In this document: one piece after another, positions 102 to 21,999 of the stretch
Numbering within the stretch: the stretch's first letter is position 1
How the letters are laid out: every line of letters begins with the position of its first letter
Virus record (IMG/VR): IMGVR_UViG_3300004095_000013
Location: 1-26,080 of that record
Origin: a virus
Direction: 5' to 3' (one strand)
DNA length: 26,080 bases
Program-made: the position numbers and the translations under genes
Notes under the pieces: generated by a model
What the model was told of the DNA's origin: nothing
Databases searched by the model: none
Seen by the model: only the letters and a program-made list of their open reading frames with translations

Positions 102-2609
102 TTATTCTCCTTTAGGTTTTTTGGACTGTAATCGTTTCATTGCTATGTCGGCACCTAATGCTAAGCCGTCTTGTTTAACACGCATACCTGCTTCCTTGGA
201 GCGAGCCAAGCCTTCGGTAATTTGAGCTTTCTTAACCGCTACTTCAGCGCCAGCTTTCATACCATCTTGCTTAATCTTGGCTTCAACTTCAAGTTTCTTG
301 AGTTGGTATTCCATTTGTTTGAGCTGCAACTCTTGTGCTTTAGCTTGTGCATCGCTCTGAACTTTCTGTGCTTTAGCGTCGACATCCTGCTTCTTGAGCT
401 GGAGTTCTTGCATTTGCATCTGTAGTACAGGGTCTTGTGCGTTTTGCTGAGCTTGTTGTTGAGCCATGAGCGCTTTGCTTTGTGCCAATACTTGTGGAGC
501 AGCTTGAGCCATGAGACGGCTAACTTCTTTTTCCATTGCTTCTGGCATCTCATCATCTGGAGAAGGTAGGGCAATACCCAAACGCTCTTCGATTTTTTGA
601 CGGTATGCAAAGCCAACGTGTTCAGCAAGGTGAGACTGAAGCGCTTGAACAATCATGTTTGCTTGTGGGTTTTGGCCGATAAGCTGTTGAACGATTGGGT
701 CTGTCATCATAGATTGATGAACAGCAATATGCGCTTCGTGGTCTTGGAAAATAAATGCCTTGAGTGGAGTGCCCTTTAGCACGTTCATATTTTCTGTAAC
801 TGGGTCTTTTGGCTTTTGGTCATCCTCCAAAGGCACCAATTTGTCGGCGTTTTTAATTCCAAGAACGTCAAGCATCTGCCTGTGCAACTCGGGAAGGTTA
901 TAAATCTGGGGTGCACTCTGCGCCAACTGGATAACAGCTTGGTACTGGACCACTCTCTGAGATAAGGTGGCCGCATTAGGGTCGGATACAGGTAACACGT
1001 CCACATGACTGTAGTCGGACTTTTTGACGTAGATGTCGCCGCTTTCTGGCTGGTAGTTGTAGTCATCATCAGTGTAATCTCTAATAATACCGGCAAGCAG
1101 CTTGAGTTCTTGTCTTAAGGCGTAGTGTACTCGAGCTTGAACGGCAGACATCACCTTCAAGGTTCTTTCCAGAATTGCAAGCGTTGTTCCAACAGGTGCG
1201 TTAGCACTCATATCAGAGATTTGCATATCGGAAGTAGCCGCAAAACGACGACCTTCTTCAATGATTTTATCCATCAAGCCAGCTAAAACTGCTGATGGTT
1301 CTTTGTATGGCAACGGGAGGATGTTGTCTCTAATGGTGCCAGAGCCTACATCAACGTCTCTAAACTCACCCGGTGCGATTGGCGTGTCGTCGCCTTTAAT
1401 GCGAAGACCACGTGACTTTAAGCCACCCGGTAAATTGGAAAGAGTACCCGCATCAACCAGCTGTCTGAGGATAGAAGTTGCGGACTTAGCAAAACCACCA
1501 ATAAGATGGAAAAGACCAAAACCATAAGCTCCATATCCGGGGATATATTGATAATGAACAAAATGCTGGCGTTTAAGGCAGAGCGGATCTTCCTCTTTCC
1601 AGTTTCTACGAATTGCAAGAATTTCATTGGTACCTCGAATCATCGTTACGACGTACGGGAGCGCAATACCTGTTGGTTCGCCGTCATCCCCTAAGTCTTC
1701 ATATCCGGGTAAATCAAGGTCAACGTGCGCTTCATATAACTCAAAGCGGTCATCATACGTTGCCGTAAACCCGGTCTCTTTGTCTTTCTTCTCCTGAATT
1801 TCTGTTTGAAACTTTTCTGGCTCACCTAACTCAATGTCACGGTAGAACCCAGCGTTCTGAAGTTTAATCAGGTCATTCTTTGTCTTGCGCATGCGATGTG
1901 TTACACGATGGCATGACGCAATTTCACTAGCTCCGTATGGGAGCATGATGTCTTCTGCTGGAATAAAGATAGAAACTTGACGACCTAAGTTTGGATCGTA
2001 GTAGACTTTCTTAAATGCGGAACCGGCAGATGGTAAATTCCACAGCATTCTTTCATGCTCGTTACGGAACTCAGGCATTTTTTCTGTGAGCTGATAGTTC
2101 ATATCTTGCTCAACACGTTGCGCTGCTTCTACTTTGTCACGAGTCTCTTTACCGATAATCTGGGTACGTACTGGACCAGCTGCAGGAAAAGTCTCCATGA
2201 TTGCTTCAGCTTGAAAACGCACCACGGCTTCGGTAATCATCGGATGGAACACGCCACAAGCGCCGTCCCATGGTTCTACTCTTTCTTCAAACTTCAAGCC
2301 AAGCAGAGTAATACCGTCTTTATACATCTTCTCCCAATCTTTGCGGGAGTTTAAATCGTTATCAATATCGTGTGCTAATTCTGCTGCTAGGGAAGTCAGT
2401 TCCCCTTCATCCATGTCTTCAGCTAAGTTGGCGTTAAATTCTGGCGAACCATCTTCTTCGTCCATCTTTTCAATATCTAACTCAAAGCCATCGGCATTGA
2501 TATGCACGGCTTCTGGGTCTTCAACTTCAACAGTAATATCTGGCTCCATGTTGTCTGCCAGTTCTTGAATACCCTTTGGTGCTTGGTATAAACCCTTATC
2601 AATTGCCAT
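102..2609 (-). CDS. Portal protein (head-tail connector), P22-like
   Basis: This 835-residue protein is most likely the portal: the dodecameric ring at one capsid vertex through which terminase pumps DNA. It lies directly downstream of the large terminase, the usual order. After an acidic N-terminus (about residues 20-70) comes a conserved-looking core at 110-155 rich in W-D-G-A-C-G, then F-H-P-M-I-T-E-A and F-P-A-A-G-P, typical of P22-type portals. From about residue 690 to the end the chain is rich in Gln, Ala and Lys and should form long helices or a coiled coil. That matches the helical barrel of podovirus portals. It is longer than the P22 portal (about 725 residues), mainly through this tail. 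The start is ATG, with AAGGA overlapping the terL stop. Family assignment is from recognition, not a search. Confidence 0.88.
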   Translation of the reverse strand: MAIDKGLYQAPKGIQELADNMEPDITVEVEDPEAVHINADGFELDIEKMDEEDGSPEFNANLAEDMDEGELTSLAAELAHDIDNDLNSRKDWEKMYKDGITLLGLKFEERVEPWDGACGVFHPMITEAVVRFQAEAIMETFPAAGPVRTQIIGKETRDKVEAAQRVEQDMNYQLTEKMPEFRNEHERMLWNLPSAGSAFKKVYYDPNLGRQVSIFIPAEDIMLPYGASEIASCHRVTHRMRKTKNDLIKLQNAGFYRDIELGEPEKFQTEIQEKKDKETGFTATYDDRFELYEAHVDLDLPGYEDLGDDGEPTGIALPYVVTMIRGTNEILAIRRNWKEEDPLCLKRQHFVHYQYIPGYGAYGFGLFHLIGGFAKSATSILRQLVDAGTLSNLPGGLKSRGLRIKGDDTPIAPGEFRDVDVGSGTIRDNILPLPYKEPSAVLAGLMDKIIEEGRRFAATSDMQISDMSANAPVGTTLAILERTLKVMSAVQARVHYALRQELKLLAGIIRDYTDDDYNYQPESGDIYVKKSDYSHVDVLPVSDPNAATLSQRVVQYQAVIQLAQSAPQIYNLPELHRQMLDVLGIKNADKLVPLEDDQKPKDPVTENMNVLKGTPLKAFIFQDHEAHIAVHQSMMTDPIVQQLIGQNPQANMIVQALQSHLAEHVGFAYRQKIEERLGIALPSPDDEMPEAMEKEVSRLMAQAAPQVLAQSKALMAQQQAQQNAQDPVLQMQMQELQLKKQDVDAKAQKVQSDAQAKAQELQLKQMEYQLKKLEVEAKIKQDGMKAGAEVAVKKAQITEGLARSKEAGMRVKQDGLALGADIAMKRLQSKKPKGE

Positions 2610-2618
2610 CTTTATTCC

Positions 2619-4139
2619 TTAGTAGTATGCTGCTCTTCTTCTATACTTGTACGTCAAGTCGTCTTGCTCGTCCGTATTTAAATTAACAAATCCGCCCTGT
2701 CTATAGCGCAGTAATGCTTGCGTTGTCGTATCCACATAGTCATCGTGCTCGCCTACAGGGAATGCTGCTACTTCTTCCACAACGTCTTTAGCCCAACGCC
2801 TATCCGGTATCCAAACACGGCCGGACGCAAATAAGTCAGAAACCGCATTAAGTCTAGCTATTTTATCGTTGCCACGGCTAGGTGTAAACTCTTGAATCGG
2901 AATCCCCATTCTGCGCAGCTCTTGTATTAACGGGCCACCCGACGCTTTTTTCTCAATGATACACGCATCTGGTTTCCATTCTTGATAATGCTTCAGTGCA
3001 ACAGCCTTTAATTCTGGGAACGCCATCCGGTCTTTGAACGCATCTAACAAAATTAGATTGGGTGAATTGTTATCTTCTTCGTTGTACCAAACCCCCCATG
3101 TTGTGCATGCGGAATAGTCAGATGTGGTTTTTGTTTCAAACGCCGTATCCCAAGACTGGATGACGTACTCGACTGTCGGTGGGTCTTCGTGTTCCCAGAT
3201 TTTCCAGTCGCTTCGTTTTATCAGGGCGCTTGTATCCCCGGTGGGGTTCTGCATGTACTGGGCGTTCCAGTACCGTGGGTCCATCTGAAGTCTTTTAGCT
3301 TCTAACTGTTCTAGAGGCCACTGCTCAGGCCACAGACTTTTCCCGTTTGGCATGATGGCTGGCAGCTCTACTACCTCCCATGGTTCTGCTTCGGGATTTT
3401 GTATGGTGAAGTTCACCAACCGGCCAGTCAAATCAACAAGCGACCACCTTGTCATAATGACAATAATCGCACCACCCGGCATCAAACGCTGCAACGGGCC
3501 AGTCTGAAACCAAGACCACGCATTATCAAACGTGGCTCGGCTGTTTGCTTTTATATCTTGCTCAGAGTGAGGGTCGTCAATAACAAAAAGGTCAGCGCCT
3601 CGTCCGGCAAGAGCACCCCCGACACCCACAGCATAATACTGGCCGCCGGCACCAGTACTCCACTTACCAGCGGCTTTTTGATCATCAGCAACAACGGTTC
3701 CGGGAAATACTTCATGGTAATCTTCTCCATCAATTAGGTTTCGTACCCTACGACCAAAGTCTTCTGACAAGCCAGCAGTGTGGGTCGCCATAATAATCTT
3801 TTTGTCAGGGTATTTACCTAGGAAGTATGCCGGAAAGAGGTAGGACGAAAATTCTGATTTGCCCATACGTGGTGCAATGTTTATGATTACGCGCTTTTTC
3901 TTCCCCGCAATGACGTCCTCGAAGATTTTAGCTAGCTTGCGGTGGTGGGGCCCCACTTTGAAACCCGGATACACGTACTTGGCAAACTCAATTGGGTCGT
4001 CTTGTGCTTTTTTTAGCTGGGCACGGCGTTCTTTTTCGTTTAATTCTTCTAGGAAAGCCGCTTTTTCCACAGTCGTCATATCTTTTAGTGCCATTCTGGC
4101 AGCCATTGCTTCTTCTGGGCTTAGACTTTCTGTTTTCAT
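2619..4139 (-). CDS. terL: Terminase large subunit (packaging ATPase and nuclease)
   Basis: This 506-residue DNA-packaging motor cuts concatemeric phage DNA and drives it through the portal. The ATPase half shows a Walker A motif A-P-R-M-G-K-S-E at residues 89-96, a Walker B L-F-V-I-D-D at 184-189, and a T-R-W motif at 230-232. The RNase H-like nuclease half shows acidic residues in S-W-D-T-A-F (Asp331), I-I-E-K-K-A-S-G (Glu396) and H-D-D-Y-V-D (Asp466-Asp470). The order and spacing fit a complete, active two-domain TerL of ordinary length. Its ATG overlaps the stop of the upstream gene by ATGA, and the portal follows after nine bases. These features indicate one packaging operon. Confidence 0.96.
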   Translation of the reverse strand: MKTESLSPEEAMAARMALKDMTTVEKAAFLEELNEKERRAQLKKAQDDPIEFAKYVYPGFKVGPHHRKLAKIFEDVIAGKKKRVIINIAPRMGKSEFSSYLFPAYFLGKYPDKKIIMATHTAGLSEDFGRRVRNLIDGEDYHEVFPGTVVADDQKAAGKWSTGAGGQYYAVGVGGALAGRGADLFVIDDPHSEQDIKANSRATFDNAWSWFQTGPLQRLMPGGAIIVIMTRWSLVDLTGRLVNFTIQNPEAEPWEVVELPAIMPNGKSLWPEQWPLEQLEAKRLQMDPRYWNAQYMQNPTGDTSALIKRSDWKIWEHEDPPTVEYVIQSWDTAFETKTTSDYSACTTWGVWYNEEDNNSPNLILLDAFKDRMAFPELKAVALKHYQEWKPDACIIEKKASGGPLIQELRRMGIPIQEFTPSRGNDKIARLNAVSDLFASGRVWIPDRRWAKDVVEEVAAFPVGEHDDYVDTTTQALLRYRQGGFVNLNTDEQDDLTYKYRRRAAYY

Positions 4140-4816
4140 TCGTCGCGGGGCTCAGCTTTGATGACTTTCACTATTCCCACGTCCTCAATGTCTTCTTCTT
4201 TAATCTCAGTTACCTCAACCACGCCCATGTACTTCTCAAGTTTCTTTTTAATTTGTTTTTCCAACTCTTCATCACTTAGTTCAGTCTTCTTAACTTCAAC
4301 TCTGTCCGTAAACAGGGCAACTTCTGTGACTTTTCCCAACAATTCCAACGCCTTTAAGCGTATTCTTGCATCTGGGTGGTCGGTTTCTTTAACAATCTTG
4401 GCTACGCTCATGCTTCGTAGCTCTTGTGCTTGCTCTACAAACTTCCATTGATAGGCAGTCACCATGGAAACGGCAGACTTTACTTCTTCTGGGAGCTCAA
4501 GCTCTAGGAATCTTTCTTTTGTATCAGGGCTTTGCGTGATTAGCGCACCGAATGCTTCGCCTACACGTTGTTCTTGGGCGCGGTCTAGTACCTCGTCGTC
4601 ATCTTCGGTAATAGATTTGAGCCAGTCGGCAGTGTTTACCTGCGCATCTATGGTTTCTTTTACAGATAGGTCTTTTACAGGGACGAACAAATCCCCGTCC
4701 GGTAGTGTTTCCGGAGCGAAGTCAGCGGCTGCAGCTGAAACTAAATGATCTAAGATCAAATAAAACCCTTTCTGTTGCGCGGGGGAATCCGCGATTTTGT
4801 GTATTTTATTACACAT
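4136..4816 (-). CDS. Probable terminase small subunit
   Basis: This 226-residue protein lies immediately upstream of terL and overlaps it by four bases (ATGA), the classic position of the small terminase that recognises phage DNA. The middle is helical, with a conserved-looking R-L-K-A-L-E-L-L-G-K segment near residues 155-165, as in small terminases of the Terminase_2 type. The C-terminus is highly charged, with alternating Lys and Glu. I see no certain helix-turn-helix, so the call rests mainly on context. The start is uncertain. The ATG at 4816 has only a poor ribosome site (AAAGAAA) and lies in a short inverted repeat. An in-frame TTG at residue 21 has AGAAAGGG eight bases before it and could be the real start. 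Confidence 0.62.
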   Translation of the reverse strand: MCNKIHKIADSPAQQKGFYLILDHLVSAAAADFAPETLPDGDLFVPVKDLSVKETIDAQVNTADWLKSITEDDDEVLDRAQEQRVGEAFGALITQSPDTKERFLELELPEEVKSAVSMVTAYQWKFVEQAQELRSMSVAKIVKETDHPDARIRLKALELLGKVTEVALFTDRVEVKKTELSDEELEKQIKKKLEKYMGVVEVTEIKEEDIEDVGIVKVIKAEPRDE

Positions 4817-5100: not shown

Positions 5101-5297
5101 TTTATTTCCTTTAGGTTAGTGCGGTTCCCTTATGGAGCCTTTGGGTCCATTTTAATTTGTTTTATGGTGCAGTGCAACATTGTTACTAGACAGTTTTTGG
5201 TATGTATAGTAATTGCAGTTTTGTAGACATGTTTGGGGGATATGCGCAGATTTGTTGACATTTTGTATACGTCGTTGAGTTTATGCGCTCTTTGGTT

Positions 5298-5344
5298 GAC
5301 TCATAAATAAAGCTTTAACCCCTATATGGACTCATTTATGAGTC
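5298..5344. repeat. Nested inverted repeat GACTCATAAAT / ATTTATGAGTC
   Basis: GACTCATAAAT at 5298-5308 is perfectly complementary to ATTTATGAGTC at 5334-5344, across a 25-base spacer. The right arm is itself part of a tight palindrome, GACTCAT-TT-ATGAGTC (5329-5344). The half-site GACTCAT therefore occurs three times. This arrangement suits a dimeric DNA-binding protein with cooperative sites. It is an operator candidate, with no known regulator identified in the window. Confidence 0.55.
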
Positions 5345-5364
5345 ATTACTTTTTCTTACAAACT

Positions 5365-5427
5365 TTCCCGTTCGGGAATATTTTTTTACTTTTGCACACT
5401 TTTTTATCAATTCTTCCCGTTCGGGAA
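5365..5427. repeat. Duplicated TTCCCGTTCGGGAA hairpins followed by T-runs
   Basis: Two identical 14-base inverted repeats lie at 5365-5378 and 5414-5427, 49 bases apart. Each folds as TTCCC-GTTC-GGGAA. The first is followed by a seven-T run after TA, the second by AC and six T. In the plus direction each resembles a weak intrinsic terminator. As double-stranded DNA each could also be a protein binding site. They may block stray plus transcription from the packaging side. Confidence 0.45.
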
Positions 5428-5502
5428 ACTTTTTTATACCTATAGGTTGGAATTGTTTTGTTGTTTTGATACCTATAGGCACTACTGGGAAACTTTTTTA
5501 TA
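5423..5502. repeat. Interleaved direct repeats: GGGAAACTTTTTTATA and ATACCTATAGG
   Basis: The 16-mer GGGAAACTTTTTTATA occurs at 5423-5438 and 5487-5502. The 11-mer ATACCTATAGG, containing the perfect palindrome CCTATAGG, occurs at 5436-5446 and 5469-5479. Read on the minus strand, each 16-mer becomes TATAAAAAAGTTTCCC. The copy at 5502 is preceded by TGT, giving an extended -10-like TGTTATAAA. These could be tandem minus-strand promoters for the packaging operon, or iterated protein sites. No good -35 is visible. Confidence 0.4.
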
Positions 5503-9871: not shown

Positions 9872-10846
9872 ATGAGAACATACGAAGACGCATTATCACA
9901 ATACAACCGCAGTAAGAAACCAACCCGTAGTAAGAAGTGGTTAGCTATGCCCGATAGCCCAAGATACCTACGCAATGTATCAGCAGACCATATGGGTATT
10001 CACAAGACAAACGATGGCGCTATCTACTACCGCTTGTATAACACCAATGTCGCAACCTTCTATCCACCCGAAGCAGACGGCGCACGCAAGGTAGTAATGA
10101 ACTACTACGCTAGCCAAACCACTAACATCTTTATGTATGAGCAAGGACTTAACTACCATGACCTAACAACAACCGAGGGCAAGCAAGTCCGAGTTCCCTA
10201 TGTAGCTAGCTGGGATAGAGCAAGCGGTTCACACAAACCAAGCGCAGAGTTATGGTTCAACCAAGACGGGCTACTAATTACAGAACGATCAAGCCATCGT
10301 GACATCTACACATACAAGTCAAGCGCAGAGGATAAGCAGAAGCGCAAGGACTTCAAGGCTAAGGTAGATACACTCATGACCCTCGCTTTATTCCGCTTGC
10401 CCGAATACAGAGCCAATGTAACTATCGACGAGAACCTAGGTCAGCCATTCGGCACAGCGTGGCGCAATGCACCACGAGAGATCAGTAGGTTTGAGGATGT
10501 AGTCAGGGACTTAGGCGCAGATCAGACCGAGCATCCTCAATACATCGAAGCGTTCTTAAACTTAGGTCAGGCGGTGTTCGACATCTCTGCTAGCCACAAG
10601 GTTTACAACTACATCCCCGAGGGTGAGCGTTGGCAAGGACAGTTGTTCCGCACATGGGGTAAGTCAGCAGACCAACTCAAAGCCATGCTCGATAAGCAAC
10701 ATGAGGTAGCAGAAGAAGTTACAGCAGAGGAGTTCAAGAAAGCTATGACTAGTCGCTTGTTAAATGTTGCATCACTCAAGACAGGCTCAGTCAAAACACC
10801 TTGGGGTCAGTTCATGTCATCTATCCCACGCAAGTATTTTGTTTAA
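9872..10846 (+). CDS. Hypothetical protein, 324 residues
   Basis: I place the start at ATG 9872 (M-R-T-Y-E-D-A-L), which has GAAAGGA seven bases before it. A longer in-frame ATG at 9791 overlaps the previous stop and would add 27 Tyr/Gln-rich residues. The bases in that extension look like the untranslated leaders elsewhere in this operon, so I prefer the shorter form, but not strongly. The protein is basic at the N-terminus (S-K-K-P-T-R-S-K-K-W). Its middle has many Tyr and Asn, and its C-terminal third is helical. No enzyme motif is visible and I recognise no named family. Confidence 0.75.
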   Translation: MRTYEDALSQYNRSKKPTRSKKWLAMPDSPRYLRNVSADHMGIHKTNDGAIYYRLYNTNVATFYPPEADGARKVVMNYYASQTTNIFMYEQGLNYHDLTTTEGKQVRVPYVASWDRASGSHKPSAELWFNQDGLLITERSSHRDIYTYKSSAEDKQKRKDFKAKVDTLMTLALFRLPEYRANVTIDENLGQPFGTAWRNAPREISRFEDVVRDLGADQTEHPQYIEAFLNLGQAVFDISASHKVYNYIPEGERWQGQLFRTWGKSADQLKAMLDKQHEVAEEVTAEEFKKAMTSRLLNVASLKTGSVKTPWGQFMSSIPRKYFV

Positions 10847-10999
10847 CTATATGTAGTATCAGTAGCACTACCCGTAGTATCAGGGTTTATTCTTATGTCA
10901 AACCTTGGACAGGGTAGTATCATTGTAGGAAACAGAGCAAAGACTCTATATGTAGTACCTCACGCAGTTCAACAACAACATAGAAAGGCAGTAAACATT
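10847..10999. promoter_or_regulatory. Leader region with GTAGTATCA and CTATATGTAGTA repeats
   Basis: This gap before the AAA+ ATPase holds three copies of GTAGTATCA (10853-10861, 10874-10882, 10914-10922) and two copies of CTATATGTAGTA (10847-10858 and 10946-10957). An open frame starting at 10895 could be joined to the ATPase, but these repeats and the poor ribosome site there argue that it is untranslated leader. The repeats could be regulator sites controlling the three-gene cassette. No consensus promoter is clear. Confidence 0.4.
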
Positions 11000-12121
11000 A
11001 TGCAGATGCTTTCATTTAAACAAGTTACACAACTCATCAAGGCAATCGGTCACAAGCGCACCATCATTGTCGAGGGCGAGAATGGTATCGGTAAGACTGG
11101 TCTATTCCATATGCTCAAAGATGACCCGTTCTTTTCTAACCATGTCCATGTTGACCCGATTGATTGCACGCAGTTATCCGATGGTTCAGTATGGATGCCT
11201 GACATTGACAGAGAGTTAGGTGTTAGTCGTGAGTTACCTAACGAGCGCTTCGGTGTTAACAAGGACAATCAGAAAGGTATCAATGGCGCACGACCAGCGT
11301 TAGTATTCCTCGATGAGATTGCCAAGGCTCGTCAGTATATTAAAGATGTGCTAGCCCCAATCGTTTACGAGCGTCGTGTTGGTAACTACCATATGCCCGA
11401 GGGTAGCGTAGTGTTTTGTGCTACTAACTTATCAGTCGAGGGTCTAGGCGATTCCATTCAAGCGCACTTGCGTAATCGTTTGGTGTTTGTCAAGATGCGT
11501 AAGCCTACGCAAACTGAGTGGCGAGAGTGGGCTATCGACAGAGGTATTGCACCCGAGGTTATTGCATGGACTGACGAGTTAGGTCAGACATTGTTTGATA
11601 GCTTCCTTGACTATCAGTCAGGTGCTAAGTATGACGGGCAACGACAAGAAGCGCACAACGCATACATCTTCAACCCATCTATCGCACAGATGTCCTATGT
11701 CACACCACGCTCACTTCATGCGGCATCTGACATTGTGTATAGCAAAGACGGCATGGACACAGAAACATTATTGTCCGCACTATCAGGCACTATGGGTGAG
11801 GCTGGTGCTGAATCACTCAAGGCTTTCATTCAGTTCGGTGAGCAAACCCCTCCGTTCCCACGCATCTTGAAAGAACCTAAGACTTGCCCTGTCCCTGAGA
11901 ATCCTATGGCGCAGATCATTACAGTTCTCAAGTGCATTACACAAACCAATGGTCGTGAGGATGCCGAGGCAGTATGCGAATACATCTTGCGTATGCGTCG
12001 TGAGATGCAGTCTATGTTCTGCCATAACCTAGCGCAGTCTAGTCGTGTATCTAACTTCGTGACTGTCAAGCCGTTCCAAACTATGTTGCAAGACAACAAG
12101 ATTTATTTCACAGGCAAGTAA
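11000..12121 (+). CDS. MoxR-like AAA+ ATPase
   Basis: This 373-residue AAA+ ATPase is of the MoxR/CbbQ/CobS group. Numbered from the chosen start, the Walker A G-E-N-G-I-G-K-T is at 26-33, Walker B A-L-V-F-L-D-E at 100-106, sensor 1 A-T-N at 141-143, and a likely arginine finger segment H-L-R-N-R-L at 156-161. Such ATPases form hexamers and work with a VWA-domain partner to remodel protein complexes or insert metals, and the next gene encodes exactly such a partner. The start is ATG 11000, behind AAAGG. The frame extends up to 10895, but that region is repeat-rich and leader-like. The substrate is unknown. Confidence 0.88.
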   Translation: MQMLSFKQVTQLIKAIGHKRTIIVEGENGIGKTGLFHMLKDDPFFSNHVHVDPIDCTQLSDGSVWMPDIDRELGVSRELPNERFGVNKDNQKGINGARPALVFLDEIAKARQYIKDVLAPIVYERRVGNYHMPEGSVVFCATNLSVEGLGDSIQAHLRNRLVFVKMRKPTQTEWREWAIDRGIAPEVIAWTDELGQTLFDSFLDYQSGAKYDGQRQEAHNAYIFNPSIAQMSYVTPRSLHAASDIVYSKDGMDTETLLSALSGTMGEAGAESLKAFIQFGEQTPPFPRILKEPKTCPVPENPMAQIITVLKCITQTNGREDAEAVCEYILRMRREMQSMFCHNLAQSSRVSNFVTVKPFQTMLQDNKIYFTGK

Positions 12122-12131
12122 GGAGATCACT

Positions 12132-13337
12132 ATGAGTTCAATATGGGACAAAATGTCGCTTAACGACCGCATCATAGCGTGTCATGTGGACATCAGTAAT
12201 AGCGCATTGTTCGCTACGCTGTCAGGTATTGTGTATGTCGGTGATGTCAAGCTAGACGAGGACATCAGGACTGCGGCAACTGATGGTCGTAATGTTATCT
12301 ATGCGCCATCATTCATCGAGCCTTTATCACGCAAGCAGTTGAGGTTCTTGATTCTTCACGAGAGTTTGCATAAGGCTTTACATCATTGCACTAACTACAA
12401 AGCATTGTGCGAGAAGTATCCTATGTTGTGCAATCAAGCTATGGATTATGTAGTCAATGGCACGATAGAAGAAACCGACCCGACCCATGCGTTCATCGAG
12501 CACCCAACCGCAGTAGCTCCTTTGTTAGATAAAAAATACTATGGTTGGAGTTTTGTAGAAGTCTTACAGGATTTGATTAAACAATGCGAGGAACAAGGTG
12601 GCGACCCGACTGCTGGTAGTGGTGTTGGTGGTGACGGCACGCTTGACGGACACATACTAGGTAAGCTATCCGATGCTATCGAAGCCAAGACTGCACAAGA
12701 AGTTTCAGAAGCGTTGCATCAAGGCAAGATGTTAGCCAAGCGTATCAAGGATAGGGGCAACGGCAGTAGCGGTAGTGCATTAGATCGCCTTACTCAGAAG
12801 CGTGACACCAACTGGAAAGAGTATATGCGTGACTTCATTACTCAGTTATGCGAGGGCGATGACTACTCACGATTCGCACCGCCTAACAAACGCTTACTAC
12901 CCCAAGGCATACTCATGCCATCACACTTCTCTGAAACAACAGGCGAGTTAGTGATTGCTTGTGATGCGTCAGGTTCTATGTATCACATACTGCCTACTGT
13001 GTTCGGTGAGGTATCTCGTATCTGCGAGAATGTTAAGCCTGACTCTGTGCGTGTGTTGTGGTGGGAAACAGAGATTGTCGGCGAGCAAATCTTCAAGCCC
13101 TCTGACTATCACAACATAGCCAACCTCATTCGCCCTTGTGGTGGTGGTGGCACACGCTTGACTTGTGTGCGTGAGTATATGGTTGAGCATAAGGTCAAAC
13201 CCAAGGCAACCATCGTGCTTAGCGACGGCTACATAGAATCGGATTACATACTACCTGACGGGCCCATCTTGTTCGGTGTAGTAGATAACGATTCATTCAC
13301 AAGCAACAAAGGTAAGACAGTTCGTATTTATTCATAA
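12132..13337 (+). CDS. VWA-domain protein with HExxH metallopeptidase-like region
   Basis: This 401-residue protein has two recognisable parts. Near the N-terminus, L-H-E-S-L-H-K-A-L-H-H (residues 75-85) contains the zinc-binding HExxH motif. It is followed at 101-110 by N-Q-A-M-D-Y-V-V-N-G, typical of the metallopeptidase-like domain found fused to VWA domains (DUF2201-type). The C-terminal VWA domain has a complete MIDAS: D-A-S-G-S at 278-282, Thr341 after four Gly, and Asp365 in L-S-D-G. A Gly-rich linker lies at 156-175. It begins ten bases after the ATPase stop, behind AAGGAG. The pair parallels RavA-ViaA, CbbQ-CbbO and CobS-CobT. Whether the peptidase site is active is unknown. Confidence 0.88.
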   Translation: MSSIWDKMSLNDRIIACHVDISNSALFATLSGIVYVGDVKLDEDIRTAATDGRNVIYAPSFIEPLSRKQLRFLILHESLHKALHHCTNYKALCEKYPMLCNQAMDYVVNGTIEETDPTHAFIEHPTAVAPLLDKKYYGWSFVEVLQDLIKQCEEQGGDPTAGSGVGGDGTLDGHILGKLSDAIEAKTAQEVSEALHQGKMLAKRIKDRGNGSSGSALDRLTQKRDTNWKEYMRDFITQLCEGDDYSRFAPPNKRLLPQGILMPSHFSETTGELVIACDASGSMYHILPTVFGEVSRICENVKPDSVRVLWWETEIVGEQIFKPSDYHNIANLIRPCGGGGTRLTCVREYMVEHKVKPKATIVLSDGYIESDYILPDGPILFGVVDNDSFTSNKGKTVRIYS

Positions 13338-13356
13338 ACAACAAAGGAGAATTACT

Positions 13357-14229
13357 ATGACACGCTTTAACATTGATACTTGCGCTATGTTGGTAGAGGT
13401 AAATGTTCGCCAATGGACAGCACGCAAACTAGACAAGTCAACTACCGACGAGGTGTTGGCAACTAAACAAGCTGGCAGTAAGGGTGCGGCTCGAGTTAAT
13501 AAGAACTTATTAGCTGGTCGCCCTGAGTTAGAAACAATCAACCAATGCGTTGGTGCTATCCGCACCTATCTCTATGATGTGACCTTGCCTTGGTCTGACT
13601 CGGGCTTACGCTTACTGACTACCGCTAAGTTCATGGAGTTCAACCAGCGTATGCAAGAGTTCGAGGATAAGTTCAATGCGTTGGTAGATGATTTCGTAAC
13701 GACTTACCCAACCTTGATTACTGCACAGGCTATGGCTCTTGGTGATATGTTTAACCGCAACGAGTATCCAACACCTGATGACATCAAGCATCGCTTTGAC
13801 TTCCGAGTTAACTATATGCCTGTGCCTACCTCGGGTGACTTCCGAGTTGATGTGGGTAATGACGCACAAGCAGAGTTACAAAACAAGTTAGCAAAGCTAG
13901 CAGATGAGCGTATCGAGAACGCTATGGGTGACATCAAGACAAGACTCAAAGATCACCTCAAGCGTATGTCTGACCGCTTAACTGTGGACTACACAGGACA
14001 CAAGGCACAACCCCGTATGTTCCATGCCAGTCTGTTAGATACTGCCAACGAGTTATGCTCACTAGCTAAAGACCTCAACATCACAGGCGACAAAGACTTA
14101 GAAGAAGCACGCATCAAACTACATGAAGCAGTCAATGGCTTAGAGGTTGATGACTTACGCAAAGACCTCGATACTCGCCAAGCAGTTAAGAAAGATGTTG
14201 ACGCAATCCTATCCAAGTTCGATTTCTAA
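13357..14229 (+). CDS. DUF3150-like partner of the MoxR/VWA pair
   Basis: This 290-residue helical protein is translated from ATG behind AAAGGAG. Residues 15-26 (V-N-V-R-Q-W-T-A-R-K-L-D), a T-L-P-W-S-D-S-G-L-R-L-L segment at 76-87 and the long helical region after it resemble the DUF3150 family, whose members often sit next to CobS/MoxR-like ATPases in mobile elements. The C-terminal 100 residues are a probable coiled coil with alternating charges. The function of DUF3150 is not known to me. The arrangement suggests an adaptor or substrate for the ATPase complex. Family assignment is from memory of sequence style and context, hence only moderate. Confidence 0.6.
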   Translation: MTRFNIDTCAMLVEVNVRQWTARKLDKSTTDEVLATKQAGSKGAARVNKNLLAGRPELETINQCVGAIRTYLYDVTLPWSDSGLRLLTTAKFMEFNQRMQEFEDKFNALVDDFVTTYPTLITAQAMALGDMFNRNEYPTPDDIKHRFDFRVNYMPVPTSGDFRVDVGNDAQAELQNKLAKLADERIENAMGDIKTRLKDHLKRMSDRLTVDYTGHKAQPRMFHASLLDTANELCSLAKDLNITGDKDLEEARIKLHEAVNGLEVDDLRKDLDTRQAVKKDVDAILSKFDF

Positions 14230-15219: not shown

Positions 15220-15481
15220 TTTAGAAAATTTGTGGGAATTGAGTAACATGGTAGAAGTTGTTAGCTACAAGCTAAGTAGTATTCGAGATGTGGCTGAGAT
15301 TATTGCCGAGCGTGTATGCTCCGACCCCGAGAGCGGTGCTATATGGGCAGTTGCTGAAATGATTGAGCTACAGGAGCAACAACTGGAAAAGATTAGCGCA
15401 GAAATAATGAACTGGCACAGGGCAGTAAAAGACTTTGAAGCGCCCAAACCGCAAACTAAAAAGAAAGGAACTAAGAAATGA
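15197..15481 (+). CDS. Hypothetical protein, 94 residues
   Basis: The ATG is behind GAAAGGAAAG. The protein is helical and acidic up to residue 78, then ends in a basic Lys-rich tail (T-K-K-K-G-T-K-K) probably in contact with nucleic acid. No domain is recognised. ATGA overlap joins it to the DUF3310 gene. Confidence 0.68.
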   Translation: MENPNYTDLENLWELSNMVEVVSYKLSSIRDVAEIIAERVCSDPESGAIWAVAEMIELQEQQLEKISAEIMNWHRAVKDFEAPKPQTKKKGTKK

Positions 15482-15861
15482 AACAGATTGACGACTGCGG
15501 TGGTGAGCCTGTGCCTTTCTATGGGTGGGTTCAGCATAGTGATGACACAGTAACGATTGCATACAACCATGAAGAAGCTATGCAACTGCAACGAGAATTT
15601 GCAGAACAACTTACCAAAGAACATCACGACCCAGTTAATCACCCCAAGCATTACACCACGCATCCATCAGGTGTAGAGTGCATCGACATCACGAGGCATA
15701 TGGGATTTAACTTAGGTAATGCCATGAAGTATATGTGGCGATGTGATTTAAAGCGTGATGCTATCGAGGACTTGGAGAAGGCGGTGTGGTATCTGCGAGA
15801 TGAGATTGCCTTGCGTAAGAAACAACGACAAGAAGAACTTGAGGAAAGGACAGGGTTCTAA
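15478..15861 (+). CDS. DUF3310-domain protein
   Basis: This 127-residue protein contains the hallmark D-P-V-N-H-P-K-H-Y (51-59), then G-V-E-C-I-D-I (65-71) and K-Y-M-W-R-C-D-L-K (84-92), followed by a helix with W-Y-L-R-D-E-I. That is the conserved core of DUF3310, a small phage family sometimes annotated as nucleotide kinase or pyrophosphatase-like, although it has no P-loop. The N-terminal 45 residues are extra and include an aromatic segment. It is ATGA-coupled on the left, and its stop overlaps the next ATG. The setting next to a phosphoribosyltransferase fits a role in nucleotide metabolism. Confidence 0.82.
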   Translation: MKQIDDCGGEPVPFYGWVQHSDDTVTIAYNHEEAMQLQREFAEQLTKEHHDPVNHPKHYTTHPSGVECIDITRHMGFNLGNAMKYMWRCDLKRDAIEDLEKAVWYLRDEIALRKKQRQEELEERTGF

Positions 15862-16478
15862 TGAAGGTATCAGACGCACAATATGAGGTGCTTGCTAGGT
15901 GGGTTCACGCTTACATAGATGAGCATTGCATATTGCGTGGGGTAGATTTGCCAGCGAAAGTAAAAGGCGAACGATATAGCTGGATGTTCTATCTGCGCAG
16001 AGGACTGTTCAATGCGCAGTTCAACTTCAATATAGGGCAAATGTTTTACTATTATCTTGAACGCTTAGACCCCGAGTTTAACTTTCAGATAACAGGATTG
16101 GAAACGGCATCTGCGCCTATGCTGACAGCTATACCGATGGTGGCTAAGCTAATGGGGTCAGACCTAAATGCGTTTATCGTTAGGAAAGATCGCAAGAAGT
16201 ATGGCTTAGAGAACATAGTAGAGGGCATACCAAACGACAAGCCAGCCATTATGTTTGATGACTTATGCAACAGTAGCGCATCGTTGGCTGAGTGCTTAAA
16301 CAAGTTACACACCGAGGGCATACCAGTAGCAAGGGTAGCGTTCACCATAGTCAACAAGAGTAATGTTGGTGTGCATACTGAGGAACGACTTAACACCGAT
16401 ATGTATTTACCCCCTGATATACAAGTCATTAGCCTGTTCACCCTTGATGACTTTAATTTACATAGCCCATCACACTAA
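15861..16478 (+). CDS. Orotate phosphoribosyltransferase-like protein
   Basis: This 205-residue protein looks like a type I phosphoribosyltransferase. The segment I-V-R-K-D-R-K-K-Y-G-L (106-116) matches the V-R-K-x-x-K-x-Y-G signature of orotate phosphoribosyltransferase (PyrE). A-I-M-F-D-D-L-C-N-S-S-A-S (129-141) stands where the PRPP-binding loop D-D-V-x-T-T-G-x-S normally lies, with the two acidic residues kept and the Thr-Thr-Gly replaced by Asn-Ser-Ser. This suggests a divergent but perhaps active enzyme that makes pyrimidine nucleotides for phage DNA synthesis. It starts by TAATG overlap. An alternative is a different PRTase of the same fold (for example purine-type). Confidence 0.72.
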   Translation: MKVSDAQYEVLARWVHAYIDEHCILRGVDLPAKVKGERYSWMFYLRRGLFNAQFNFNIGQMFYYYLERLDPEFNFQITGLETASAPMLTAIPMVAKLMGSDLNAFIVRKDRKKYGLENIVEGIPNDKPAIMFDDLCNSSASLAECLNKLHTEGIPVARVAFTIVNKSNVGVHTEERLNTDMYLPPDIQVISLFTLDDFNLHSPSH

Positions 16479-20540: not shown

Positions 20541-21211
20541 TGGAAGTTAAACCAATCAAGTGGAGCCACTCAGGGCTTAAAGACTACGAGGGATGCGCTA
20601 GGCGGTTCCACGAGGTTAAGGTTTTAAAGAACTACCCTTTCCAAGAAACAGTTCACACCAAGTATGGTAAGCAAGTACATGAAGCGGCTGAGCTTTATGT
20701 TAAAGAAGGCAAGCCTATACCGCCTGAGTATGCGTTTATGGAACCCATTATGGAAAGCCTGATGAAGATAAAGGGCAGAAAGTTTCCTGAGTTGGAGATG
20801 GGTGTAAGGGAAGACTTAACACCTTGCGGTTTCGGTGACGATGATGTGTGGGCTAGAGGAATCGCTGACTTAGTAATCATAGATGACGATGGTTTAAAAG
20901 CTTGGGTAGTTGACTACAAAACTGGCAACGATAAATACCCTGACCGAGATCAGCTAATCTTAATGTCCCTCATGGTGTTCGCACACTTCCCACACATTCG
21001 CCAAGTTAATTCTTCTCTACTGTTTGTAGTTAAGGGGAGCATGGTTAAGAGCAAAATGGAAGCCGACCAAAAAGATTTCCATTGGCAGTTATACAGAGAA
21101 CGTGTAGCAAAACTGGTAGCCAGCCACCATAACAATGTATGGAATCCAACAAGCACTCCGCTATGTGGATGGTGTCAGGTTAAGTCCTGTGAATTTCACC
21201 CTAATCACTAA
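20540..21211 (+). CDS. RecB/Cas4-like PD-(D/E)XK nuclease with Fe-S cysteines
   Basis: This 223-residue protein begins with S-H-S-G-L-K-D-Y-E-G-C-A-R-R-F (residues 9-23), the typical entry of RecB-family nucleases. His47, Asp110 (G-I-A-D-L-V) and V-D-Y-K-T-G (Asp125, Lys127) form the catalytic site. Cys19 together with Cys209, Cys212 and Cys217 gives the four-cysteine pattern that holds an iron-sulfur cluster in Cas4 and AddB. It is likely a single-strand-directed exonuclease used in phage recombination or end processing. It starts by TAATG overlap with the polymerase. Confidence 0.85.
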   Translation: MEVKPIKWSHSGLKDYEGCARRFHEVKVLKNYPFQETVHTKYGKQVHEAAELYVKEGKPIPPEYAFMEPIMESLMKIKGRKFPELEMGVREDLTPCGFGDDDVWARGIADLVIIDDDGLKAWVVDYKTGNDKYPDRDQLILMSLMVFAHFPHIRQVNSSLLFVVKGSMVKSKMEADQKDFHWQLYRERVAKLVASHHNNVWNPTSTPLCGWCQVKSCEFHPNH

Positions 21212-21212
21212 T

Positions 21213-21785
21213 ATGAGTAAAGTAAAAAGACTAGAAAGAATCCGTACTATCCTAGATAGTTATGCTATCGGTGTAGACTTTGCGCAAGATGATGTAGTTA
21301 GTATGAACTTACTTACTGGCTGGAGTTTCCCATATTACAAAAAAGTAATTAACCCACGCACACCCAAAGAAACACGTTGCTTGGGGGTATCAAACGATGG
21401 GATTAACTACGAAGTTTGGTCATGGCGCAAGGCAGTAGCGGAAACAGATAACAGAACCCCAGCATTACGGGCGGCTATTCAGTATCAGTTAAACGATTTT
21501 ATACGTCAATGGGCCCCGATTTGCGTACATTGTGGGGCTACTAAAGACCTGACAGTCGACCACCGCTATGTGCCATTTGTAATGATTGCAAAAAGTTTTA
21601 TAGATACCGAACCCAACATCGAAATAACCAACGATAATAGTGGGATTGGGTGGGTCATTAAAGACCCGAGTGTTTTAAAAGCATGGCAACATTTCCACGC
21701 AGAGAGAGCCACTTATCAGATTTTATGTCGCTCATGCAATTCGTCAAAAGGAAAGAAAGATGACACAGAAAAACGGCAAGCGTGA
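21213..21785 (+). CDS. HNH endonuclease
   Basis: Numbered from the chosen start (ATG 21213, one base after the previous stop), this 190-residue protein has C-V-H-C (104-107), V-D-H (115-117) and C-R-S-C-N (172-176) with K-G-K-K after it: a zinc-stabilised HNH nuclease core. The N-terminal 100 residues are an extra domain with G-V-S-N-D-G-I-N-Y-E-V-W-S-W-R-K, perhaps for DNA recognition. An earlier ATG at 21135 lies inside the nuclease gene. It may be a free-standing homing endonuclease or a phage DNA-processing enzyme. Ribosome binding is weak (no clear AGGAG), so it may rely on coupling. Confidence 0.75.
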   Translation: MSKVKRLERIRTILDSYAIGVDFAQDDVVSMNLLTGWSFPYYKKVINPRTPKETRCLGVSNDGINYEVWSWRKAVAETDNRTPALRAAIQYQLNDFIRQWAPICVHCGATKDLTVDHRYVPFVMIAKSFIDTEPNIEITNDNSGIGWVIKDPSVLKAWQHFHAERATYQILCRSCNSSKGKKDDTEKRQA

Positions 21786-21999
21786 TTACAAACACGCATA
21801 CAAGTTACAGAAAGCAACTGGTGAAACCGAAGACCAACTCGAGCGCCAGCGTGCAAGACGTAAGTATGACAAAGAAGGTATCGACCGCAAGGGCAAACAC
21901 ATAGACCACGTGAAGCCCCTAAAGTCAGGTGGGAAATCAACAAGCGGCAACTTAAGACTGCGATCTCCCAAAGCTAATATGTCAGACAACAAAAAATAA
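21760..21999 (+). CDS. Small HNH-type endonuclease, 79 residues
   Basis: This basic protein starts behind AAAAGGAAAG, inside the end of the larger HNH gene. G-K-H-I-D-H-V-K-P-L (residues 45-54) followed by G-N-L-R-L-R-S-P-K-A-N (63-73) is the H-N-H signature of tiny phage HNH proteins, without Cys pairs. The N-terminal 40 residues are Lys/Arg-rich and likely bind DNA. Two HNH genes in direct overlap are unusual. This one could be a separate enzyme or an accessory of the first. Confidence 0.75.
   Translation: MTQKNGKRDYKHAYKLQKATGETEDQLERQRARRKYDKEGIDRKGKHIDHVKPLKSGGKSTSGNLRLRSPKANMSDNKK

Follow-up and report, generated by a model that had tools for sequence, protein, structure and literature searches.

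A MoxR ATPase, metallopeptidase-VWA and DUF3150-type gene cassette shared by phages and conjugative plasmids

Three adjoining genes of a podophage-like freshwater phage, here called A, B and C, encode an AAA+ ATPase, a protein that joins an HExxH metallopeptidase domain to a VWA domain, and a mostly helical DUF3150-type protein. The three stay together as a set at all loci with room for them, and the same trio is found in plasmids of Burkholderiales. On balance we favor the view that the three proteins work together as a single ATP-driven remodelling machine of the MoxR-VWA type, perhaps a proteolytic one, which would act on early complexes of mobile DNA and not on the virion.

The window and its layout

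The stretch of DNA analysed (the window) is IMG/VR virus record IMGVR_UViG_3300004095_000013 at its full length of 26,080 nt. Among terminases, those of Pelagibacter phage HTVC027P, phage 023Pt_psg01 and DSL-LC04 show about 50% identity with that of the window, and the one of Synechococcus phage MinM2 shows 46%. Terminase and portal are encoded by the minus strand, and the plus strand runs from small genes through the cassette to genes for DNA polymerase, a PD-(D/E)XK nuclease, an Hjc-like nuclease and a SNF2 helicase. This layout, with the trio on the strand opposite terminase and portal and shared with the replication genes, suggests that the trio belongs to an early operon. A promoter scan of the window gave fewer matches than did shuffled sequence, and no candidate stands out. 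The features discussed below are the following.

105-4816, minus strand: terminase and portal genes (PHROG_38, 4e-105; PHROG_1216, 2.5e-28)
9872-10846 (long open reading frame from 9791), plus strand: gene D, about 324-351 aa, no known family (profile search)
11000-12121, plus strand: gene A, AAA+ ATPase of MoxR/midasin type, 373 aa (PHROG_1297 'ATPase', 5e-40)
11075-11098, plus strand: Walker A, GENGIGKT, near-invariant in alignment
11312-11317, plus strand: Walker B acidic pair, D140 E141 (long-ORF numbering), near-invariant in alignment
11426 and 11708, plus strand: sensor-1 N178 and sensor-2 R272, presumed roles (long-ORF numbering), near-invariant in alignment
11477-11479, plus strand: probable Arg finger, R195 (long-ORF numbering), near-invariant in alignment
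12132-13337, plus strand: gene B, HExxH metallopeptidase domain and C-terminal VWA (DUF2201), 401 aa (Pfam)
12357-12371, plus strand: HESLH (HExxH) zinc motif, H76 E77 H80, the same in all 18 sequences aligned, with identities as low as 23%
12444-12446, plus strand: D105, probable third zinc ligand, within an NxAxDYxxN motif, invariant
12963-12977, plus strand: MIDAS DASGS (D278 S280 S282), invariant
13152-13154 and 13224-13226, plus strand: MIDAS T341 and D365, invariant
13357-14229, plus strand: gene C, DUF3150-type mostly helical protein, 290 aa (Pfam, relatives, model)

Two sets of repeats occupy the space where the structural and early arms diverge. At 5351-5435 a 36-nt unit occurs twice, 49 nt apart, each copy having the palindrome TTCCCGTTCGGGAA and then T-runs, and the units look operator-like or terminator-like; at 5297-5345 two 12-nt arms, TGACTCATAAAT and ATTTATGAGTCA, form a perfect inverted repeat around a spacer of 25 nt. 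Beyond the cassette, a 205-aa protein (15861-16478) is weakly similar to phosphoribosyltransferases (UPRTase, E=0.035) and adjoins a DUF3310 protein (15478-15861, 1e-14), and two adjoining short open reading frames between the PD-(D/E)XK nuclease and SNF2 helicase genes (21135-21999) carry HNH-like Cys/His patterns by eye.

The proteins of the cassette

The longest open reading frame for A opens at 10895. Its relatives begin at codon 36 of that frame (nt 11000), and a purine-rich site lies upstream, arguing that 11000 is the true start. Walker A, the Walker B acidic pair, the sensor-1 Asn, the Arg finger and the sensor-2 Arg are near-invariant across 28 relatives; we take the roles of R195, N178 and R272 as Arg finger, sensor-1 and sensor-2 from general knowledge of the family. 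Among solved structures, the profile of A matches the midasin AAA modules best (1.4e-21). No MoxR-type family of Pfam exceeds its cut-off for the window protein itself, which reaches 13.5 bits against AAA_5 (cut-off 22), and a plasmid relative of A passes that cut-off with 24.9 bits.

Protein B carries two domains (PF13203 and PF09967), both over the Pfam cut-off in the one protein: the putative metallopeptidase domain DUF2201_N (9e-17, 62.0 bits against a cut-off of 23.2) and the VWA-like DUF2201 (7.5e-10, 39.4 bits against 26.4). The five MIDAS residues, the HExxH and D105 are all kept in 18 B proteins with identities as low as 23%, and across the cassette as a whole the catalytic residues hold to about 22% identity. 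The predicted model of B places the HExxH and D105 on successive helices (67-82 and 97-115, pLDDT about 90), and in a structure search solved VWA domains fill the list of matches, at Z of about 11-12 to the VWA part of the model. From these features B is a putative protease of the zincin type, and it is possibly active. The earlier note, made from the window by itself, had started A at 11000 and described complete AAA+ motifs in A and a full MIDAS (D-x-S-x-S, Thr341, Asp365) with an HExxH in B; the start agrees with those of most relatives and with the ribosome-binding site, the same residues prove invariant or nearly so among relatives, and the VWA assignment, on which that proposal was staked, passes the Pfam threshold.

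Relatives of B grouped in PHROG_1314, for example N4 gp25 (NC_008720 11164-12306) and Bacillus phage G gp576, are labelled 'HNH endonuclease' in RefSeq and PHROGs. No HNH family is among the Pfam matches of either the window B or N4 gp25, and on the strength of the gp25 family matches (3e-87 and 1e-46) the label on these DUF2201 metallopeptidase-VWA proteins is a propagated misannotation.

The assignment of C is more indirect. The window protein falls short of the Pfam DUF3150 cut-off (PF11348; E=9e-5, 22.3 bits against 24.9), close relatives pass it (25.1, 25.3 and 27.1 bits), and a profile-profile comparison with the canonical DUF3150 set gives E 4.8e-6 at a probability of 86%. The model of C (pLDDT 72.8, a modest confidence) finds no fold match among solved structures and resembles only other viral DUF3150-like proteins. 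Because the Pfam model overlooks several true members (the L036 and MinM2 records), the absence of C was judged by alignment search alone.

Linkage and gene order

The genes are tightly packed, with gaps of 10 nt between A and B and 19 nt between B and C, and B and C are each preceded by an AGGAG-type site. A scan of viral contigs for C gave 240 relatives, of which 80 were kept. Among 106 loci with C, the full trio lies on a single strand in 91, within a span of 2.7-4.5 kb, and at the remaining 15 the fetched DNA ends before the cassette does, so that all three genes co-occur at every locus with room for them (91/91; these include near-copies, and the distinct C sequences with a full trio number 67). 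The earlier note had proposed a three-gene MoxR ATPase/VWA-HExxH/DUF3150-like cassette and named failure of the genes to co-occur in related phages as grounds for abandoning it; family matches, motifs and this linkage confirm that the cassette exists.

Three gene orders were met, ABC, BAC and ACB, and the set is never split. When the orders are mapped onto a tree of C (48 ABC, 16 BAC, 3 ACB and 3 plasmid ACB rows), four changes are needed compared to 20.3 with shuffled labels. The BAC order may have arisen once on this tree, and ACB involves two changes inside phages, one being the long-branched MinM2 type. These shifts, in a trio that is complete wherever there is room for it, argue that the arrangement has changed while the set has stayed together.

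A fourth gene, D, was overlooked in the earlier reading. Its start is placed at codon 28 of the long reading frame from the relatives and a ribosome-binding site, and it matches nothing in Pfam or PHROG. Of 79 informative loci, 74 have D beside the trio, directly upstream in 71 (at 33-156 nt) and downstream in 3 with the ACB order, and the other 5 lack it despite having room. In every one of the 73 loci compared, D is less conserved than A, B or C, with a median identity of 33%, compared to 66% for A, 57% for B and 66% for C.

Relatives in phages and plasmids

Relatives of B occur in 550 phage records and relatives of A in 386, including N4 gp25/gp24 and Bacillus phage G. By plain tblastn among named phages, C is found only in MinM2-like phages, and by profile it is absent from N4, phage G, Vibrio phage PJN101 and the rV5-like phage FFH2. 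N4 and phage G have the A-B pair without C, and PJN101 has A and no C. Since A-B also occurs without C, and C was never found without the pair, C appears to be an add-on to the pair. In podophages with a related terminase (about 50% identical), a search in which MinM2 and N4 served as positive controls found no cassette, and it is therefore accessory in its phage group.

The earlier note pictured the cassette as a machine private to the phage, a view contradicted by its presence in conjugative plasmids and by a parallel version in ICE-like elements (see below). Plasmid matches number 44 for C and 48 for B and are mostly from Burkholderiales. Profiles built from the phage proteins match the plasmid trio proteins at 1e-41 to 1e-74. 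In three plasmids read in detail, the ATPase, DUF3150-like and VWA-like genes lie close together, and in two of the three they directly adjoin type IV secretion genes. In the Burkholderiales plasmid loci L118 and L119, the trio sits between PRTRC-system/ThiF-type genes and type IV secretion genes of the MOBH-plasmid kind.

DUF3150 with CobS/CobT-type pairs

Canonical DUF3150 proteins were found in 10 of 398 sampled Pseudomonadota genomes (E up to 0.001). At the full-length strong loci a CobT-type VWA protein with a MIDAS is adjacent or near in 7/7; the VWA protein also has an HExxH in six (L142 lacks it), and a CobS/NorQ-type ATPase lies within the fetched stretch in five. One weak Pseudomonadota match (L144) has no VWA gene beside it and is probably due to chance. 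At locus L137 the row of genes reads RecT, YqaJ exonuclease, ATPase, DUF3150, CobT-like VWA, RadC and primase.

Among plasmids, DUF3150 occurs in 1,168 records, 978 of them typed as conjugative. In the IncC plasmid pNDM10505 and in plasmids of Marinobacter, Proteus and Citrobacter, it lies near genes for RecT/Bet, a lambda-type exonuclease, a MoxR-type ATPase and a VWA protein, and the ssb-bet/recT-exo operon setting is met in IncC and other MOBH plasmids. At L137 and L145-L148, the DUF3150-MoxR-VWA set was seen within ssb-RecT/Bet-exonuclease operons of SXT-like and IncC-type elements. The ICE/IncC versions match the CobT, CobT_C and CbbQ_C families. The DUF3150 protein of pAQU1 is out of reach of the phage-type C profile and was found by tblastn with a canonical member.

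In SXT, SetCD, the activator of transfer, switches on an operon that starts from s089 and encodes the recombination system (PMC4344509). Transfer of SXT fell by no more than 10-fold on deletion of bet, exo, s067, s068 and s070 (PMC2791158), so that this region, whichever of its genes may correspond to members of the trio, is not essential there. The link to recombination is direct for the CobS/CobT-type lineage only; no RecT gene lies next to the trio in the window.

What the machine may do

We infer complex formation, protease activity, the roles of C and D and the class of target from the families and their genomic settings. In the favored model, A would assemble as a hexameric ring onto which the VWA domain of B docks, with the MIDAS metal gripping the target by an acidic patch. 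Hydrolysis of ATP by A would then pull or twist the target, and the zincin domain of B, if active, would clip it. There are precedents for parts of this scheme: the VWA partner in NorQD extends a finger into the pore of the ring and has a linker twisted by the ATPase (PMC13036017), and the MIDAS of a MoxR-VWA system has been proposed as the target-binding site (PMC9976466). The HExxH is present in both lineages, so that pulling may be coupled to cutting. Because C is never met without the A-B pair, a structural or coupling role is its simplest reading; a fixed scaffold or adaptor between ring and target is plausible, and D is a candidate target-specificity factor or substrate. Likely targets would be protein complexes on which mobile DNA depends soon after it enters a new cell, for replication, recombination or establishment. 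This reading is favored by the sharing of the cassette between phages and conjugative elements, its position on the replication arm, and the recombination operon of the second lineage. Of the remodelling machine first proposed, the MoxR-VWA core and its third partner are thus supported by motifs, families and obligate linkage; the private use by the phage and the aim against host or defence are not.

That last aim corresponds to an alternative that we consider unlikely, in which a counter-defence unfoldase or protease disarms a host immune complex and D serves as a changing target recogniser. D does evolve fast, and the cassette is common to phages and conjugative plasmids and accessory in its phage group. 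However, A, B and C evolve slowly (medians of 66, 57 and 66% identity), unlike typical arms-race proteins, and no defence-system family match or linked defence gene was noticed. In PADLOC, no system protein matched over its whole length, A giving partial AAA-type matches only and B and C none, and nothing found points to a defence target.

It also seems quite unlikely that the cassette encodes a virion-assembly chaperone and maturation protease, with A-B(-C) remodelling and trimming structural proteins. Such a role has been proposed for the published MoxR-vWA-metallopeptidase pair of group 2.2 jumbo phages, by analogy with a MoxR-vWA tail-assembly system of an archaeal virus (Iyer et al. 2021, PMC7824862). 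Three observations argue against a virion-only role here: homologues of the trio occur in plasmids and ICE-like elements, which make no virion; the cassette lies beside replication genes on the strand opposite terminase and portal; and it is missing from phages with an approximately 50% identical terminase. A metal-insertion or chelatase maturation device of the CobS/CobT or NorQ/NorD type, loading metal into a phage or plasmid enzyme, is very improbable despite the CobT, CobT_C and CbbQ_C matches of the ICE/IncC versions, given that most members of both lineages retain the HExxH of a zincin, that the regions read show no annotated chelatase large subunit or metalloenzyme target next to the trio, and that the window B has no CobT or CobT_C match in Pfam (cobalt chelation was rejected for the window genes, among which no chelatase subunit was noticed).

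Returning to the remodelling machine, its occurrence in phages and conjugative plasmids, with a related version in IncC plasmids, makes the cassette look like a shared tool of mobile DNA. A bolder extension, which we offer tentatively and with considerable doubt, is that DUF3150 marks a widespread machine of AAA+ ring, metalloprotease-VWA protein and coupler, built on two separate MoxR-VWA backbones, that would strip or degrade proteins attached to the DNA of the element or to ssDNA-annealing complexes, with phages adding the fast-changing D as a targeting protein.

What is new

A pair of the A-B type has already been published for jumbo phages, and N4 gp24/gp25 are its equivalent. The new elements are that C was never found without the pair, that the trio is present in Burkholderiales plasmids, and that canonical DUF3150 accompanies a second MoxR-VWA lineage (SXT-like, IncC). 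DUF3150 is absent by name from the open-licence papers searched, and neither the three-part set, nor D, nor the IncC/SXT parallel was found described in that literature. More than 1,000 plasmid records, mostly conjugative, contain DUF3150, among them those of IncC multidrug-resistance plasmids, and at least 240 viral contigs carry its phage form. As the constant third partner of two MoxR-VWA lineages, it unites genes now called 'hypothetical', 'CobS/CobT-like' or, wrongly, 'HNH endonuclease'.

Comparison with known systems

The jumbo-phage pair resembles A-B in that the partner of its AAA+ ATPase is a VWA protein with a metallopeptidase domain at the N-terminus; unlike the window, it is described in the available part of that account (PMC7824862) with no DUF3150 partner and no fourth gene named. 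N4 gp24-gp25 and their Schitoviridae relatives are homologous to A-B (matches of 1.8e-55 and 4.3e-52; DUF2201_N in gp25 at 3e-87), and the two N4 genes are neighbours placed ahead of the replication genes. N4 differs from the window in having no C, and its B carries the unsupported 'HNH endonuclease' label. In a CRISPRi-ART paper that covers the N4 rII genes, nothing on gp24/gp25 was found; the two genes offer a ready laboratory model for the A-B pair.

Synechococcus phage MinM2 and Planktothrix phages Pag-Yong1 and Pra-JY27 have A, B and C at 22-29% identity, annotated as MoxR ATPase, VWA-like and DUF3150, respectively. They differ from the window in their order, A-x-C-x-x-x-B with small genes interposed, and no D was found in them; profile searches likewise found no D in MinM2 or in plasmids. 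The SXT-like ICE/IncC lineage resembles the window trio in keeping an AAA_5 ATPase, DUF3150 and a MIDAS VWA protein, mostly with an HExxH, together or nearby. It differs in the CbbQ_C domain on several of its ATPases, in its CobT-type VWA proteins of 545-731 aa and in its ssb-bet/recT-exo operon.

The cellular systems RavA-ViaA, NorQ-NorD, CbbQ-CbbO and midasin each pair an AAA+ ring with a VWA/MIDAS partner that remodels a dedicated complex, as proposed here. To our knowledge, none of them has an HExxH domain or a DUF3150 partner, and whereas they are all cellular, the cassette of the window is borne by a mobile element.
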